Assembly: GCF_900113805.1 (NCBI RefSeq)
Contig: NZ_FOQT01000004.1
Coordinates: 1 to 64,000, forward strand
From: Halpernia frigidisoli
GTDB lineage: Bacteria; Bacteroidota; Bacteroidia; Flavobacteriales; Weeksellaceae
Reading direction: 5' to 3'
Length of the DNA: 64,000 bases
The notes below the pieces were generated by a model that saw only the letters and a program-made list of their open reading frames with translations, did not search any database and had not been told where the DNA came from. Position numbers and translations under genes: made by a program. The first letter of the stretch is position 1, and each line of letters begins with the position of its first letter. Positions 14,429-21,347 of the stretch are shown piece after piece.

Positions 14429-15802
14429 TTAGGATTCTGAATGGTGAATAAAATCTAAAAAGTCTTTCTCAGATTTATGAACAATAATACTTTCTGTTTT
14501 TTTCGTGCGAAAAGGTGGGTTTTTCCAAAACTGGTATTTTTCCGCAAAAATATCGGCTACTTCTTTTTCATTTTCCGTTCGAACCCTTTCATATTTTAAA
14601 ACATCATATTTTTCTAACTTTTTCATTTCTTCAGAAAGATTATTTACTAAATCCTGGTTAAGTTTTTCAAGTCTTTTTTGTAGAGTAATACCGTATTTTT
14701 TAACGTGTTCATTGTAATTATTCTGCACAAAATTCATTTCAATTTCCTGTTTCATTTTAAAGAAACTTTTCTTTTTCCCAACGCTGTATTTCTGGTAAAC
14801 AGGAAATATAAATGTAAAAACAGCAAACGAAATAACCGCCCAAGACAAAGGATTTTCTTTTAAAATAATGCGCATCGTGGTAATATAAAAATTACTTTTA
14901 TCAACCAGTTTTGCTAATTTTTCGTAATGCTCTTTTTTTTCCTGAATTACCGAAACTACATTATTCTTATATTCTTGAAAATCTTTTTCTAAATATTGAT
15001 TATTGAATTTAATTTCTTTAATGTTTTCCAAAAATTTTTGATCTTCAGTCGTTTCGTCGAAAAGCAAATTCTCAATATTAGAATAGATATCATCAAATTT
15101 TTGCTGATTTTTTCCGCTAAAGGGGAGTCTTTTTAATTTTTCAAGATCTTTTTTGAAAAAAAGTCCATTAATTAAAGAAATATTATCGTTTTCAATTTTC
15201 TGACTAATAACGCTGTAAGATTTTTTTAAATTGACGGAATCTTGTAAACTCAAAATCTTAAACCTTTCCTCAAATTTACTTCGGTATTCCATTTCTTTTT
15301 TCACGAAAGATGAATCTGCAGAGAGAACTTCATTCAGTTTATACTCTATTTTATAGCGGTCAACGGATCTTTGTGAAGAATTTTTTAGTAACAAAACATT
15401 TAAAGGTTGTGATACAATTACTGCAAGAAAAATAATAAAACCTAACCTAAAAAAAAACGAGATGTTGTAATTAAAAACCAGCATTTTTACTTCTCCAATA
15501 ATCTTATTGTTTTTTTTAATAGGTGTGGGTAAAAGTGTCGGTGTAATGGTGTAATTGAGAAAAACATAAATGACTGCGACTAATAATCCCCAAAAAATCC
15601 CAATGGGAACAGACAAAAAAATATTTCCCTGAAATGCATTATATAAAAATGAAAATCCACTCACGCAACACAAAATGAAAATCATAAATACAAATACGCC
15701 AATTCCTACAAAAACATTAGATGTTCCGCTTCTATTAATTATCTGAAAATCTTCACCGGAAAATTTCAGGAAAAAATTTCGCAAGGAATTCTTTTCTTTC
15801 AT
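14429..15802 (-). CDS. DUF4407-like coiled-coil membrane protein (second paralogue)
   Basis: A 457-residue membrane protein. Helices near 29-55, 60-85 and 127-147 are followed by a long charged, heptad-like region (about 150-310), one helix (about 318-337) and a cytosolic coiled-coil tail (345-430). This topology copies the DUF4407 protein encoded two bases upstream, suggesting a paralogous pair that may form a hetero-oligomer. Sequence identity between them is low by eye, so family membership is tentative. No enzymatic motif is visible; the role is probably structural or sensory in the envelope. Confidence 0.6.
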   Translation of the reverse strand: MKEKNSLRNFFLKFSGEDFQIINRSGTSNVFVGIGVFVFMIFILCCVSGFSFLYNAFQGNIFLSVPIGIFWGLLVAVIYVFLNYTITPTLLPTPIKKNNKIIGEVKMLVFNYNISFFFRLGFIIFLAVIVSQPLNVLLLKNSSQRSVDRYKIEYKLNEVLSADSSFVKKEMEYRSKFEERFKILSLQDSVNLKKSYSVISQKIENDNISLINGLFFKKDLEKLKRLPFSGKNQQKFDDIYSNIENLLFDETTEDQKFLENIKEIKFNNQYLEKDFQEYKNNVVSVIQEKKEHYEKLAKLVDKSNFYITTMRIILKENPLSWAVISFAVFTFIFPVYQKYSVGKKKSFFKMKQEIEMNFVQNNYNEHVKKYGITLQKRLEKLNQDLVNNLSEEMKKLEKYDVLKYERVRTENEKEVADIFAEKYQFWKNPPFRTKKTESIIVHKSEKDFLDFIHHSES

Positions 15803-15804
15803 TT

Positions 15805-17040
15805 TTATGCTTCCTGAATGTACATTTCCGGGTCTTCGTCTATTTTCTGCTTTTCTCTTTCTTTGTATTTTTCTACTGCATAATACGTAAGTTCTTTTTG
15901 GATTTCAGCAATTTTCACTTTTTCAAACTTTAGTTTATCCGCTTCGTGATTGATGATTAAATGTTTTTCTACACCTTCTTTATCTTTATAAAAATCATAG
16001 CGAACTTCAATTCCATTTTCCGCCAGTTTCATTTCGTTTCTGTTTTCGTAGAGATAATCATACGGCGATTTTATAAGCATCATTTTGAAAAAAATCGGAG
16101 TCAATTCTATCGCCAAAAATAAAAGGGTAATAAAAATTGAAATAGTACTTCCTGCAACTTCATGGGCTTTTTTTAAACGTATTAATAAACCGTCTAAACT
16201 TGCGGCTTTTCTTCCGGCGTCATCTATTGTTTTTTTCTTTTTTTCTTGTAATTCTGCTTTATCGTTTTCTGCTTTTATAAAATTTGGCGACTTTTTGAGT
16301 ACATCAACCTGTGCTTGTAATTCGCCTATTATTGTTTTCATTGCTTCGGCTCTTGGTTCATAACCAGGTCTTTTTCCAGTAATTTCTGTAACTAAAATTT
16401 GTTTATTTGCAATAATTGATTTTTCCTTTTCATCAATTTCACTTTGTATTTTTCCTAAATTTTGTTCAGTTTCCGAAATTGATTTTTTAAAATTAATTTC
16501 AGCAAGATTAATAAGATTTGTTTTTTCTTTTTCCTGCTCTTTCTGGATTTCTAAATCAATCTCAGTTTTAAACATCCTGATTTCTACAGGTTTAGAAATT
16601 GAGATTGCAATAATACATCCCATAATCAATCTCGGTAACGCACTTTTTAATTCATTTAAAGTAATTGCTTCCGTACCATCGCCTTTTCCGGTACTTGTAA
16701 CAATAAACCGGTCTATATTATAAATCATCAATCCCCAGATAATTCCAAAAATTACTGAAAAAATTACCGTCGGAGTATCGATCGGAATTTCTGTAGCACT
16801 TTTGGCAACCTGCATTTTATCCAAAACATTTGCAGTTTTTGGTGAAAAAATGGTATAAAATGCATAACCGCCAGAAAGTGATGCCATTACGCCAGTTGCA
16901 AGAACAATTCCGCCCATGCAGAAATATTTTACCTGATCAGAATAAGTTGCTCTTTCCAATAGGAATGCGTCGCCACCTGCACAGTTCCACATCATTTTCA
17001 TTATTGAGCTGGGTTTCGGGGTTGTGTAGTTTTCCATCAT
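15805..17040 (-). CDS. DUF4407 domain membrane protein
   Basis: A 411-residue protein beginning with a polar segment containing MWNCAGGDAFLLERATYSDQ, which fits DUF4407. Hydrophobic helices follow (about 41-65, 88-108 and 139-150) with the motif WGLMIYNIDRFIVTS between them. A periplasmic or cytosolic coiled coil (about 165-280) rich in Glu/Lys, another helix (about 288-308) and a charged tail complete it. The family is widespread in Bacteroidota and without known function. The ATG overlaps the stop of the interrupted upstream frame as ATGA. Confidence 0.8.
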   Translation of the reverse strand: MMENYTTPKPSSIMKMMWNCAGGDAFLLERATYSDQVKYFCMGGIVLATGVMASLSGGYAFYTIFSPKTANVLDKMQVAKSATEIPIDTPTVIFSVIFGIIWGLMIYNIDRFIVTSTGKGDGTEAITLNELKSALPRLIMGCIIAISISKPVEIRMFKTEIDLEIQKEQEKEKTNLINLAEINFKKSISETEQNLGKIQSEIDEKEKSIIANKQILVTEITGKRPGYEPRAEAMKTIIGELQAQVDVLKKSPNFIKAENDKAELQEKKKKTIDDAGRKAASLDGLLIRLKKAHEVAGSTISIFITLLFLAIELTPIFFKMMLIKSPYDYLYENRNEMKLAENGIEVRYDFYKDKEGVEKHLIINHEADKLKFEKVKIAEIQKELTYYAVEKYKEREKQKIDEDPEMYIQEA

Positions 17041-18502: not shown

Positions 18503-19081
18503 ATGGTAGACGCAAGTGAGTATTCATTCGATTTTCTAAAAATGCTGTTCGGCGATTTTGGTCCGCTTATTTATCTTGAAATTTTTATCCGTGTTTTTAT
18601 CATTATGGCTTATACTATATTAATAATCAGATGGATAGGGAAGCGCGCTGTTGGCGGTTTGGGAAGTGCTGATATTTTGATTATCGTTGCAATGGGAAGC
18701 GCCGTTGGAGATGCTACTTTTTACCCTTCTGTGCCACTTTCAGTAGCATTATTAGTTATTACGCTGATTGCTGCCTTTCAGAAATTATATATTTACATCG
18801 GTATCAGACATGAAAAAGTAAGAAAAATAACCCATCCAAAAGTGCTGAAACTTGTAGAAAACGGAAAGCTTTTAAATGAAAACTTTACGATTGACGAGAT
18901 TGATAAAAATGAAGTCTATATGCTTCTTCGGGAAGCCGGGATCAAATATTTATCTGAAGTCGAACATGCTTATTATGAGCAATCCGGGCAGTTGAGCGTT
19001 TTTAAATATGAAAATCCAATGAAAGAACATTCTATTTTACCGGAACATTTGGATCAACTTAAAGAAAAATCTGAGAAATGA
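18503..19081 (+). CDS. DUF421 (YetF-like) membrane protein
   Basis: A 192-residue protein with three N-terminal helices (about 21-45, 52-72, 74-95) and a soluble C-terminal domain. RWIGKRAVGGLGSADILIIV and AMGSAVGDATFYPSVPL are the DUF421 signature. The tail LREAGIKYLSEVEHAYYEQS also fits the family. Function is unknown in this group. The stop overlaps the umuD-like ATG as ATGA, so this envelope protein is in the same transcript as the Y-family polymerase. Confidence 0.88.
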   Translation: MVDASEYSFDFLKMLFGDFGPLIYLEIFIRVFIIMAYTILIIRWIGKRAVGGLGSADILIIVAMGSAVGDATFYPSVPLSVALLVITLIAAFQKLYIYIGIRHEKVRKITHPKVLKLVENGKLLNENFTIDEIDKNEVYMLLREAGIKYLSEVEHAYYEQSGQLSVFKYENPMKEHSILPEHLDQLKEKSEK

Positions 19082-19443
19082 GTTTTGAAGATCCACAACA
19101 AATAAAAAAGTCTGAGGAAAACCACAGAGTGGCGAGACCGACACAGACTGGATTTTCCAGTCCGGCAACTCATTACAATGAACCGAGAATTGATCTAAAC
19201 AATGTTTTAGCACAGAATTCTGAATCTACTTTTTACATTCGTGTGATTGATGAAGCTTCATCTGAATTAAATATCAATATAAACGATGTTTTAATTGTTG
19301 ATAAATCTTTGACTCCAAAACAAAATCAGTTGGCAGTTGTAATTAAAGAAGGAAATTTTGAAATTTTGAGAATGGGGGAGATTTTAATGGAAGAAATTAA
19401 AATTTGGGGCGTCATTACTTATATCATAAAATCAACTTTATGA
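19078..19443 (+). CDS. umuD: UmuD-like protein lacking the protease residues
   Basis: A 121-residue S24/UmuD-fold protein: TGFSSPATHYNEPRIDLN (24-41), STFYIRV (50-56), NDVLIVDKSLTP (69-80), KIWGVITYII (108-117). It aligns almost without gaps to E. coli UmuD up to about residue 100 as I recall that sequence. There the self-cleavage Cys24-Gly25 becomes Thr24-Gly25, the nucleophile Ser60 becomes Ala60, and the general base Lys97 becomes Leu97. It should therefore not cleave itself. ATGA overlaps join it to both neighbours. It probably serves as a fixed partner of UmuC. Confidence 0.8.
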   Translation: MSFEDPQQIKKSEENHRVARPTQTGFSSPATHYNEPRIDLNNVLAQNSESTFYIRVIDEASSELNININDVLIVDKSLTPKQNQLAVVIKEGNFEILRMGEILMEEIKIWGVITYIIKSTL

Positions 19444-20714
19444 TCGCGTTGGTCGATTGCAATAGTTTTTACGCTTCCTGTGAACAGGTTTTCCGGCCGG
19501 ATCTCCAAAACCGTCCGGTGATTGTGTTGAGTAATAATGATGGTTGTGTGATCGCGGCCAACAAACACGCAAAAGCATTAACGGAAATCCCGATGTTTCA
19601 GCCTATTTTTAAAATTAAAAAATTGCTGGATGATAATAATGTCGCTTATTTTTCTTCTAATTACACGCTTTACAGCGATATGTCGCGCCGCGTGATGGAT
19701 ACTTTAAAAGAATTTTCACCCTTGGTAGAAGAATACAGTATCGATGAAAGTTTCGTGGATCTTTCATATTCTCGGGACGAAGATTATGAAAATCTTGGAA
19801 GAATTATAAAAAATACGGTTCAGAAAAACACCGGTATTCCGGTTGGTGTTGGAATTGCAAAAACAAAATCTCTATCAAAATTAGCCAATAAATTCGCAAA
19901 AAAAATTCCTGAAAATAATGATGTCTTTGTTGTGGATTCTGAAGAGAAACGACAGCTTTTACTTCGAAGCTTGACGGTAAAAGATGTCTGGGGAATTGGT
20001 AGAAAAAATGCCGAAAAACTGACCAAAAACAACATCAATACTGCTTTGGAATTTGCAGAAATGCCAATGGCTTGGGTGCGGAAAGAAATGACGGTGATCG
20101 GCGAAAGGCTTTATCGCGAACTAAATAATGAACCTTGTCTCGAGTTGAACGCTTTACCTGAGGCAAAACAAGGCATCGGAACAGCAAAATCTTTTGGCAA
20201 AAAACTGACGGATTACGGTTTGATAGAAGAAGCCTGCAGTTATTATGTTTCGGAAGTTGCGGATCTTCTGCGCCAGCAAAAAAGTTCTGCAACACAAATC
20301 GAAGTGTCTTTGCAGACCAACGCTAACAGCGCGACAGACATGCAGTATAAAAATAAGATTACTATAACCTTAGAAAGTCCGACGAACAGTACTGTGAAAT
20401 TAACCAAAGAAGCCTTAAAAGGTTTACGGCAAATTTTCAAACCCGGTTATCGCTATAAAAAAGTAGCAGTTAATTTATTGCATTTCGTTCCTGATGATCA
20501 GATTCAGTTGGGTTTATTTGAGGAAAAAACTAAAATTGAAAGTGCTGAAATCACTGAAGTAATGGATGCTTTAAATAATAAATTTGGGAAAAATAAAGTT
20601 AAATTAGGCAGTGTAGGTGTGAGGGAAAAAGAATGGGCATTGATAAAAGAACACCGAAGTCCGAGATATACAACGCAGTGGGATGAATTATTGACAATCG
20701 GTAAGAAAGAGTGA
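19440..20714 (+). CDS. umuC: Y-family DNA polymerase, UmuC type
   Basis: A 424-residue translesion polymerase. I chose the ATG at 19440, which overlaps the umuD-like stop (ATGA) and gives the conserved start MIALVDCNSFYASCEQVFRP. Catalytic acids are Asp6 in the first motif and the Asp-Glu of EEYSIDESFVDLS (about residue 100). The helix-hairpin-helix region (VKDVWGIGRKNAEKL) and little finger follow, and the C-terminal tail KEWALIKEHRSPRYTTQWDE is typical of Bacteroidota UmuC. It lets replication pass damaged bases. Confidence 0.94.
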   Translation: MIALVDCNSFYASCEQVFRPDLQNRPVIVLSNNDGCVIAANKHAKALTEIPMFQPIFKIKKLLDDNNVAYFSSNYTLYSDMSRRVMDTLKEFSPLVEEYSIDESFVDLSYSRDEDYENLGRIIKNTVQKNTGIPVGVGIAKTKSLSKLANKFAKKIPENNDVFVVDSEEKRQLLLRSLTVKDVWGIGRKNAEKLTKNNINTALEFAEMPMAWVRKEMTVIGERLYRELNNEPCLELNALPEAKQGIGTAKSFGKKLTDYGLIEEACSYYVSEVADLLRQQKSSATQIEVSLQTNANSATDMQYKNKITITLESPTNSTVKLTKEALKGLRQIFKPGYRYKKVAVNLLHFVPDDQIQLGLFEEKTKIESAEITEVMDALNNKFGKNKVKLGSVGVREKEWALIKEHRSPRYTTQWDELLTIGKKE

Positions 20715-20738: not shown

Positions 20739-21347
20739 TTAAATTTCAATCGTCCGGAAAGTCAAATTAATTCTTGGTGTAAAAACTTTTTTTGTCGGCG
20801 GCAATCTGTGAAGCCAGTTTTTTTGCGTCTCGCCTTTCATGACTAGTAAACTTCCGGGCTGCAGCTGAAAATCGACGCGTTCTTTGGTAGTTTTATGTTT
20901 AAACGAAAACTTTCGTTCTGCGCCAAAACTTAAAGATGCAATTGCGCCGTTCATTTTAAGATCTTTTTCGCCGTCGCTGTGATAAGCCATGCCTTCTTCG
21001 CCGGAATGGTAAAGATTTAAAAGACAGGAATTAAAAGTTTCACCGGTTTTTTCTTCCACCAATTTTTTGAGTTTTAAAAGATCTTCGGTAAATTTTAAGG
21101 CTTTTTTTGTTCGGTTAGAATAAGTGTATTCAAAAGCATCTTCTGCATACCAGGCGACTTTTCTTTTGGTGTAAATGAGTTTCCCGAAAATTACAGCTTC
21201 GTCATTTTTCCATTCTATGTCGTTTAATAGATTAAAATAAAATTTTTCTGCGTCAATTTCTGCTACTACTTTGCCATAATAATTGACTGTTCCGTCATAA
21301 GGCAAATAATTTTTTTCTGAGGTAAATTCCGGGGGAAATAATTCCAT
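20739..21347 (-). CDS. alkB: AlkB-family DNA repair dioxygenase
   Basis: A 202-residue Fe(II)/2-oxoglutarate dioxygenase that removes alkyl groups from 1-methyladenine and 3-methylcytosine. The iron triad is HSDGE (His and Asp, about 119-121) and WLHRLPPT (His about 179), and the oxoglutarate arginines lie in TPRINLTFR near the end. It resembles the short ALKBH2/3-like bacterial forms. It converges with umuC 24 bases away; both act in DNA damage tolerance, though not co-transcribed. Confidence 0.92.
   Translation of the reverse strand: MELFPPEFTSEKNYLPYDGTVNYYGKVVAEIDAEKFYFNLLNDIEWKNDEAVIFGKLIYTKRKVAWYAEDAFEYTYSNRTKKALKFTEDLLKLKKLVEEKTGETFNSCLLNLYHSGEEGMAYHSDGEKDLKMNGAIASLSFGAERKFSFKHKTTKERVDFQLQPGSLLVMKGETQKNWLHRLPPTKKVFTPRINLTFRTIEI

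Follow-up and report, generated by a model that had tools for sequence, protein, structure and literature searches.

A UmuD-like protein of Halpernia frigidisoli that appears unable to cleave itself, and its dyad-less relatives in Bacteroidia

Introduction

In the textbook account, two locks restrain DNA polymerase V (Pol V): LexA represses the promoter, and UmuD has to be cut first. The operon described here lies in a stretch of 64,000 nucleotides of Halpernia frigidisoli DNA (positions 1 to 64,000 of contig NZ_FOQT01000004.1; hereafter the window). It raises the question of what a UmuD-like protein without the residues for self-cleavage could do for the UmuC encoded next to it, and of how such a polymerase would be controlled. 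The operon consists of three genes, for a DUF421/YetF membrane protein, the UmuD-like protein and UmuC, and the UmuD-like gene forms ATGA overlaps with both neighbours, DUF421/YetF upstream and umuC (start 19440) downstream. The features considered are the following.

18503..19081, + strand: DUF421/YetF membrane gene, the first gene of the operon
19078..19443, + strand: UmuD-like accessory gene, 121 aa, lacking the S24 Ser-Lys dyad and about 18 aa past the Lys97 strand
19147..19200, + strand: codons 24-41, the tail TGFSSPATHYNEPRIDLN, which begins at the old cleavage site (T24-G25) and is the most conserved part of the family
19255..19257, + strand: Ala60 codon (Ser60 in E. coli UmuD), by alignment
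19366..19368, + strand: Leu97 codon (Lys97 in E. coli UmuD), by alignment
19440..20714, + strand: partner umuC, 424 aa, with IMS, IMS_C and DUF4113 domains
19464..19466, + strand: UmuC codon 9 (Ser), by column comparison
20505..20519, + strand: UmuC QLGLF, from the sequence, presumably a sliding-clamp binding motif
20628..20711, + strand: UmuC C-terminal tail, containing the shared residues 406 and 414

The genome encodes RecA (one match, E 8.1e-137) and three Y-family polymerases, the UmuC of the window among them. Elsewhere in the window, a 2OG-Fe(II) oxygenase gene (AlkB-like; PF13532, E 2.8e-31; 20739-21347) is convergent with umuC, and two DUF4407 proteins are encoded side by side at 14429-17040.

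The UmuD-like protein lacks the catalytic residues

Residues 22-99 of the window protein align to E. coli UmuD without gaps in a HMMER (phmmer) comparison (8gmt, E 6.3e-11; the 8gmt reference chain is itself K97A), and residues 25-99 align to UmuD' (1umu, E 5.8e-10; HMMER). Through the 8gmt alignment, C24 corresponds to T24, S60 to A60 and K97 to L97. The larger alignments agree, which bears out the three replacements that a sequence-only reading had proposed. The protein has neither an Ala-Gly nor a Cys-Gly cleavage site, Thr-Gly being found instead. About 18 residues after the Lys97 strand are absent as well (17-19 gaps in columns 100-122 in 13 of the 14 short-form members described below, 14 gaps in the other one); hence part of the old active-site surroundings has been lost too. 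With the dyad and the usual cleavage residue gone, self-processing looks impossible on sequence grounds, and the earlier proposal that the protein would not be processed to a UmuD'-like form appears sound. The same reading had named Ser61 or Ser62 with Lys90 as residues that might occupy the catalytic positions after all. Among the 13 other short members, Ser61 is shared by one, Ser62 by one and Lys90 by none, and as unconserved residues they were ruled out as stand-ins.

The homology to UmuD is recognized by the NCBI model NF007621 with an E of 2.3e-21, but the score of 76 bits is below the cut-off of 110. The window protein does not reach the curated Pfam cut-off for Peptidase_S24 (21.4 vs 23.3 bits); all 14 short members match this domain at E <= 0.001, and several exceed the curated cut-off. 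It also falls below the cut-off of the HumD family model NF051876 (52.7 bits, cut-off 120). An N-terminal DNA-binding domain of the UmuDAb type was not found by Pfam, which gives S24 only. The AlphaFold single-chain model is weak, with a pLDDT of 66.5; ten-residue blocks over 51-120 average 72-87, and residues 1-42 are mostly below 50. The five best PDB matches of this model in Foldseek are all UmuD' or UmuD (E 9e-5 to 4e-4, query TM 0.48-0.55).

A conserved short form paired with one UmuC clade

Fourteen distinct short UmuDs were found in Flavobacteriales, the window protein included; the others come from Kaistella antarctica, Frigoriflavimonas, Aurantibacter, Zobellia, Maribacter, a Pricia MAG and seven more Flavobacteriales genomes. 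All fourteen have Thr-Gly at the old cleavage site and lack most of the stretch past Lys97. When the three positions were aligned across these proteins, Ser60 and Lys97 occurred together in none (Ser60 alone in 5/14, Lys97 alone in 1/14). Twenty-six columns are invariant across the family, the start Met counted. Thirteen of the fourteen genes overlap umuC by 1 or 4 nt or sit 1 nt away from it. The exception (L081) has about 0.6 kb between the two genes, and in this interval (L081:3480-3990) there is what looks, by eye, like a YefM/YoeB toxin-antitoxin pair. The survey contained one more genome of the same genus (G001), which had no match. Among dN/dS estimates, two unsaturated short pairs gave 0.28 and 0.39 and the full-length pairs described below a median of 0.146 (n = 18), values from a method that the median of 0.569 in the active control (157 pairs) marks as unreliable at such distances.

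The UmuC of the window has the PF00817, PF11799 and PF13438 domains and a C-terminal tail of the RecA-NT/UmuD'-binding type; it matches NF002955 with an E of 3.7e-117, but at 391.8 bits it is below the cut-off of 431. In the order survey of 395 genomes, 120 matched the short-form profile at E <= 1e-6, and a full-length short-form match was present in 8. A search with the window UmuC found its close clade (at least 496 bits) in exactly the 8 of 395 genomes that have a short UmuD; the best UmuC seen outside this clade scored 375 bits. Three UmuC trees were built, from 84 of 86 rows, from 86 of the 141 rows that passed a length filter, and from 70 rows (14 short, 14 full, 4 'ump', 34 active and 4 outgroup). 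The 14 UmuC partners of the short UmuDs formed one clade (UFBoot/SH-aLRT 100/99 in the 70-row tree; SH-aLRT 100 in the 84-row tree). The UmuD of the window is thus a member of a conserved class with its own UmuC, and neither a lone oddity nor a case of isolated decay. One UmuC partner (L082; G625:C1:4264445-4265710) carries a single in-frame TGA close to the C-terminus, and its frame ends at FTTQ within the tail; this is either a sequencing error or a late loss.

The ATGA-coupled DUF421 gene, which had been taken to add to the oddity of the locus, turned out not to belong to the system. It lies upstream in 2 of the 14 short-form loci, the window counted, the other being L044 with a 76% identical copy, and none was found in the remaining 12. 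With recurrence in just one of 13 other loci, this neighbour is a local arrangement outside the conserved system. At L044, a stretch 68% identical to the 2OG-Fe(II) oxygenase gene of the window is found some 2.7 kb upstream of DUF421.

Phages and plasmids were considered as carriers of the short form, and this was rejected. A scan of viral_contigs turned up no relative, and searches of plasmids (at least 5000 records) and phages (37 records) gave only matches below 60% identity; the 15 listed from each either had no annotation or were labelled UmuD, polymerase V subunit or error-prone repair protein.

Dyad loss beyond the short form

A class survey of 375 genomes, 62 of them matching, extended the observation. 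Twenty loci among the matches listed were read at that stage, and they included two full-length UmuDs from a second Bacteroidia family (f50) that carry Thr24, Ala60 and Arg97. A search of f50 gave matches in 156 of 254 genomes. Seventy-four high-scoring loci were read, corresponding to 70 distinct proteins, and the Ser60-Lys97 pair was present in none of the 70; the 16 low-scoring loci that were read divided into 8 without Lys97 and 8 with the full dyad. Altogether, 184 distinct UmuD-like proteins were compared, 91 with Ser60 and Lys97 (active) and 93 without. The latter comprise 14 short, 73 full-length and 5 'ump' proteins and one lone case (L050). Because similarity to a dead UmuD was the criterion for choosing the f50 loci, the number 73 is not a frequency; the full-length and 'ump' proteins are termed dead for the absence of the pair. 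Arg97 is present in all 73 full-length dead proteins, Ala60 in 66 and the T-G junction in 65. The best NCBI model for the dead UmuD genes is nevertheless named 'autoproteolytic subunit'. The lone case, in a Chloroherpeton MAG (L050:4896-5826), consists of tandem UmuD-like genes, the first without Ser60 and Lys97 and the second with GESM and Lys; the two proteins could form mixed dimers.

The five 'ump' genes of f50 (L257, L259, L260, L262 and L264) begin at or near the N-terminus of UmuD'. Three of them start with M-GFPSPA (L259, L260, L264) and one with M-LFPSPA, while L257 carries nine residues ahead of the P1 Thr; the true starts may lie further upstream, at a GTG or TTG. Arg97 is found in all five, Ser60 in three, and umuC lies downstream in four. 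Their UmuC partners sit apart from those of the short and full forms in the UmuC tree, which implies more than one loss of the dyad. A single origin of the 'ump' group itself is doubtful. In the earlier 86-row tree, the four 'ump' UmuCs enclose the partner of an active UmuD (L263; support 96), and two changes are required in the group in that tree; the four form one clade (99/97) in the 70-row tree, from which L263 had been trimmed beforehand. One origin for the short and full forms was favoured, with an SH-aLRT of 87, in the tree without non-Bacteroidia sequences. In the 70-row tree it was recovered in 2% of bootstrap trees (AU p 0.076); there, the group of the two forms has 77/48 support and includes one intruder, a long-branch plasmid sequence (L272).

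The UmuC partners of the short and full forms share residues at columns 9, 262, 269, 406 and 414 that occur in fewer than 10% of active partners. Residue 9 is Ser in 14/14 short and 49/60 full dead partners; it is Asn in all 74 active partners, in 10/60 full partners and in 4/4 'ump' partners. Tyr11, two residues further on, we take to be the steric gate. Common ancestry may be an alternative cause of the shared residues. In the published model of Pol V, one UmuD' tail is near the active site of UmuC, and Ala9 of E. coli UmuC is near the active site without a direct contact to UmuD'; the same paper cites work in which changes of the N-terminal residue of UmuD' affect mutagenesis by wild-type and A9V UmuC (PMC11791011). 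The C-terminal tail of E. coli UmuC binds UmuD' (PMC6511836). The gene order umuC-umuD, opposite to that of E. coli, was seen in 23 of the 74 active UmuDs with a umuC (L094, L095, L097 and others), and in none of the 78 dead UmuDs having one.

A conserved tail and an altered arm

If the tail were a mere cleavage substrate, it would be expected to decay once cleavage was lost; yet it is the most conserved part of the dead proteins. Mean conservation over residues 24-40 is 0.92 in the short and 0.94 in the full form, compared to 0.64 and 0.80 over residues 41-75. In the active UmuDs, a more diverse set, the corresponding values are 0.69 and 0.62. In the arm that precedes the tail, a Pro-hydrophobic motif (TFPLF-like, as in E. 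coli, where it keeps the arm attached to the globular domain) is found in 65/87 active proteins, 1/14 short and 0/73 full dead proteins, and a looser pattern in 72/87, 0/14 and 19/73, respectively; arms of fewer than 12 residues were dropped from these counts (4 active, 5 'ump'). The length of the arm has been retained, with 22-28 residues before P1 in all 14 short members.

SOS boxes and repressors

Two SOS boxes of Bacteroidetes, CTAA-N5-TTAG and GGA-N5-TCC, are tied to HTH-S24 regulators according to PMC8565304, the former box being assigned there to Hymenobacteraceae, Sphingobacteriaceae and Chitinophagaceae. CTAA-N5-TTAG precedes 70 of the 73 full-length dead genes (0.5 expected from shuffles), mostly at about 32 nt from the start, and 3 of the 5 'ump' genes; f50 may be Chitinophagaceae, a guess that draws in part on this box. 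GGA-N5-TCC precedes 7 of the 14 short genes (0.35 expected), and in 5 of those 7 it is doubled, 19 nt apart. Among active UmuDs, the box counts (CTAA/GGA) are 7/2 where umuC follows (49 genes), 0/0 where it precedes (23 genes) and 1/1 where none was seen (17 genes). This set is not a matched control, as it comes partly from families with other boxes or has umuC first. Rows with less than 200 nt upstream were dropped from the box counts (2 active).

An HTH regulator ('TADIERG') with an intact GDSM motif is encoded in 8 of the 14 short-form genomes. The SOS box is present in 7 of these 8 and in none of the other 6 (Fisher one-sided p 0.0023, with the grouping made post hoc); the genome of L082 (G625) has the regulator and lacks the box. 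Most of the relatives that were read keep the transcriptional tier, an SOS box with a LexA-like repressor, and with boxes before 70/73 full and 7/14 short genes, control in these relatives seems to have shifted to transcription. In the window operon, neither type of box was found in the 400 nt before the DUF421 gene or the 300 nt before the UmuD-like gene. The window genome (99.5% complete) has no HTH-S24 LexA-like repressor, and at E <= 0.001 PF00717 matches nothing in it but the UmuD-like gene. Both known tiers of control therefore appear to be absent from this genome, and with the transcriptional tier missing as well, the operon is probably expressed at a basal level or controlled in another way. 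The statement of the sequence-only reading that control must differ from the SOS model consequently holds for the cleavage step; it does not extend to transcription in the relatives with SOS boxes, though the window's own genome has neither box nor repressor.

Discussion

The conserved tail, the absent or rare arm motif, the different residue 9 of UmuC, which is near the active site, and the separate UmuC lineage argue for a UmuD-like protein that does the work of UmuD' from the moment of its synthesis. We consider it probable, as far as sequence can tell, that the product of the window gene serves a Pol V-type translesion polymerase as a ready-made UmuD'-like subunit, and the earlier suggestion of a constant polymerase accessory would be the best reading in silico. 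The uncleaved arm would not fold back to inhibit, and the conserved tail would dock into UmuC near the active site. RecA would still assist the polymerase as a cofactor but would have ceased to trigger the cutting of UmuD, and the cleavage tier of control would have been dropped. The 'ump' genes and HumD of phage P1 show that UmuD' can be encoded without the need of cleavage. Several points speak against this reading: the retained length of the arm, compared to the free N-terminus of UmuD', which lies near the active site in the E. coli model (PMC11791011); the looser arm pattern in 19/73 full dead proteins; Asn at UmuC residue 9 in 10/60 full and 4/4 'ump' partners; the weak AlphaFold model; and the lowered mutagenesis with uncleavable E. 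coli UmuD S60A, taken up below.

Several known systems resemble the one described here. With UmuD/UmuD' of E. coli (Pol V, UmuD'2C), the window protein shares homology over 22-99, an operon with umuC, the tail GF-SPA--Y-E-RIDLN, the C-terminal strand and a DUF4113-tailed UmuC; unlike the E. coli protein, it lacks Ser60, Lys97, about 18 residues and the TFPLF-like arm motif, and it has Thr at P1. HumD of phage P1 is likewise a UmuD'-like protein produced without cleavage, and its record gives a LexA site upstream and complementation of UmuD'. However, HumD starts with M-GFPSPA and keeps, by eye, a Lys (EYRIKRY) at the Lys97 position, whereas the window protein has 24 residues before Gly25 and Leu97; the 'ump' genes are closer to HumD in layout than the window gene is. 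E. coli UmuD 3A (T14A L17A F18A) cannot be cleaved and is regarded as a UmuD' mimic; its arms are full-length and interact only weakly with the globular domain (PMC5342242). That variant was made in the laboratory with the dyad untouched, whereas the natural proteins described here lack the dyad as well as the arm motif. In Bacillus, YolD/YqjX are small proposed accessory subunits beside the UmuC-type polymerases UvrX/YqjW, which have a RecA-NT motif (PMC6511836, PMC12926913); they have no detectable sequence homology (PMC6511836), whereas the window subunit is a true UmuD relative. UmuDAb of Acinetobacter is another UmuD relative with an altered role, but it has a DNA-binding N-terminal domain and still cleaves itself (PMC8565304), and the window protein has no such domain by Pfam.

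The most serious competitor is a permanent brake, in which an uncleavable UmuD would hold UmuC in the UmuD2C (checkpoint) state, away from translesion synthesis. An uncleaved arm can indeed act as a brake, since the uncleavable, full-length UmuD S60A of E. coli lowers UV mutagenesis and raises UV sensitivity (PMC3901139), and the length of the arm is retained here. Yet the Pro-hydrophobic motif of the arm is missing in 13/14 short and 73/73 full dead proteins, the domains of the window UmuC are intact, and five dead f50 genes have a short arm or none. The SOS boxes before most of the dead relatives that were read would also make little sense for a polymerase that is always blocked, and we regard a brake as unlikely.

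It is similarly doubtful that the arm is cut off by another protease (Clp, Lon or a dedicated enzyme), giving processing without self-cleavage. The near-constant length of the arm leaves room for such trimming, and the nearly fixed T-G junction (14/14 short, 65/73 full) may have become a recognition site. Neither the window genome nor G270 has a further S24 match at E <= 0.001, which makes cleavage in trans by a related peptidase unlikely in these two genomes, and the three-gene operon of the window contains no protease gene.

Hidden self-cleavage by other residues, for instance Arg97 of the full form or a Ser and a Lys close by, is very improbable. Arg97 is basic and Ser60 survives in 5/14 short and 8/79 full-length dead proteins, but in the short form Ser61, Ser62 and Lys90 are not conserved, position 97 varies (V, Q, M, A, I, N, L, K, R or E) and the stretch past it is deleted. 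Simple decay, with the gene a pseudogene on its way out, would fit the lost active-site residues and the lack of a match in G001, and is scarcely credible given the open frame with 26 invariant columns over 14 genomes, the tight spacing to umuC in 13 of the 14 and the one-to-one match with the UmuC clade.

Extending the reading of a ready-made UmuD'-like subunit beyond the window is more tentative. It is possible that a large part of Bacteroidia has a Pol V without the RecA-triggered cleavage switch, autoproteolysis having been lost more than once, with the arm threaded at the active site of UmuC and co-adapted with residue 9, and with control by transcription alone or by neither tier.

Each element is already known singly, from the S24-family UmuD, HumD and the UmuD 3A variant. 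We found no report, in the open-access literature, of a natural, chromosomal, lineage-wide loss of UmuD self-cleavage. In the text of PMC8565304 available to us, the UmuD homologues of the phylum are listed and the dyad of the regulators is examined, the UmuD dyad passing without comment; the available passages on UmuD in PMC6511836, PMC12926913 and PMC3765255 do not mention its loss either.

With the self-cutting chemistry lost here and in many relatives, mutation-prone repair is probably controlled otherwise in these bacteria. The dead UmuD genes are natural experiments in which the second lock, the cutting of UmuD, is gone. They separate the job that the UmuD' tail does for UmuC from its role as a cleavage substrate, and they raise the question of whether, under DNA damage, mutation in such bacteria is more frequent or follows a different timing.
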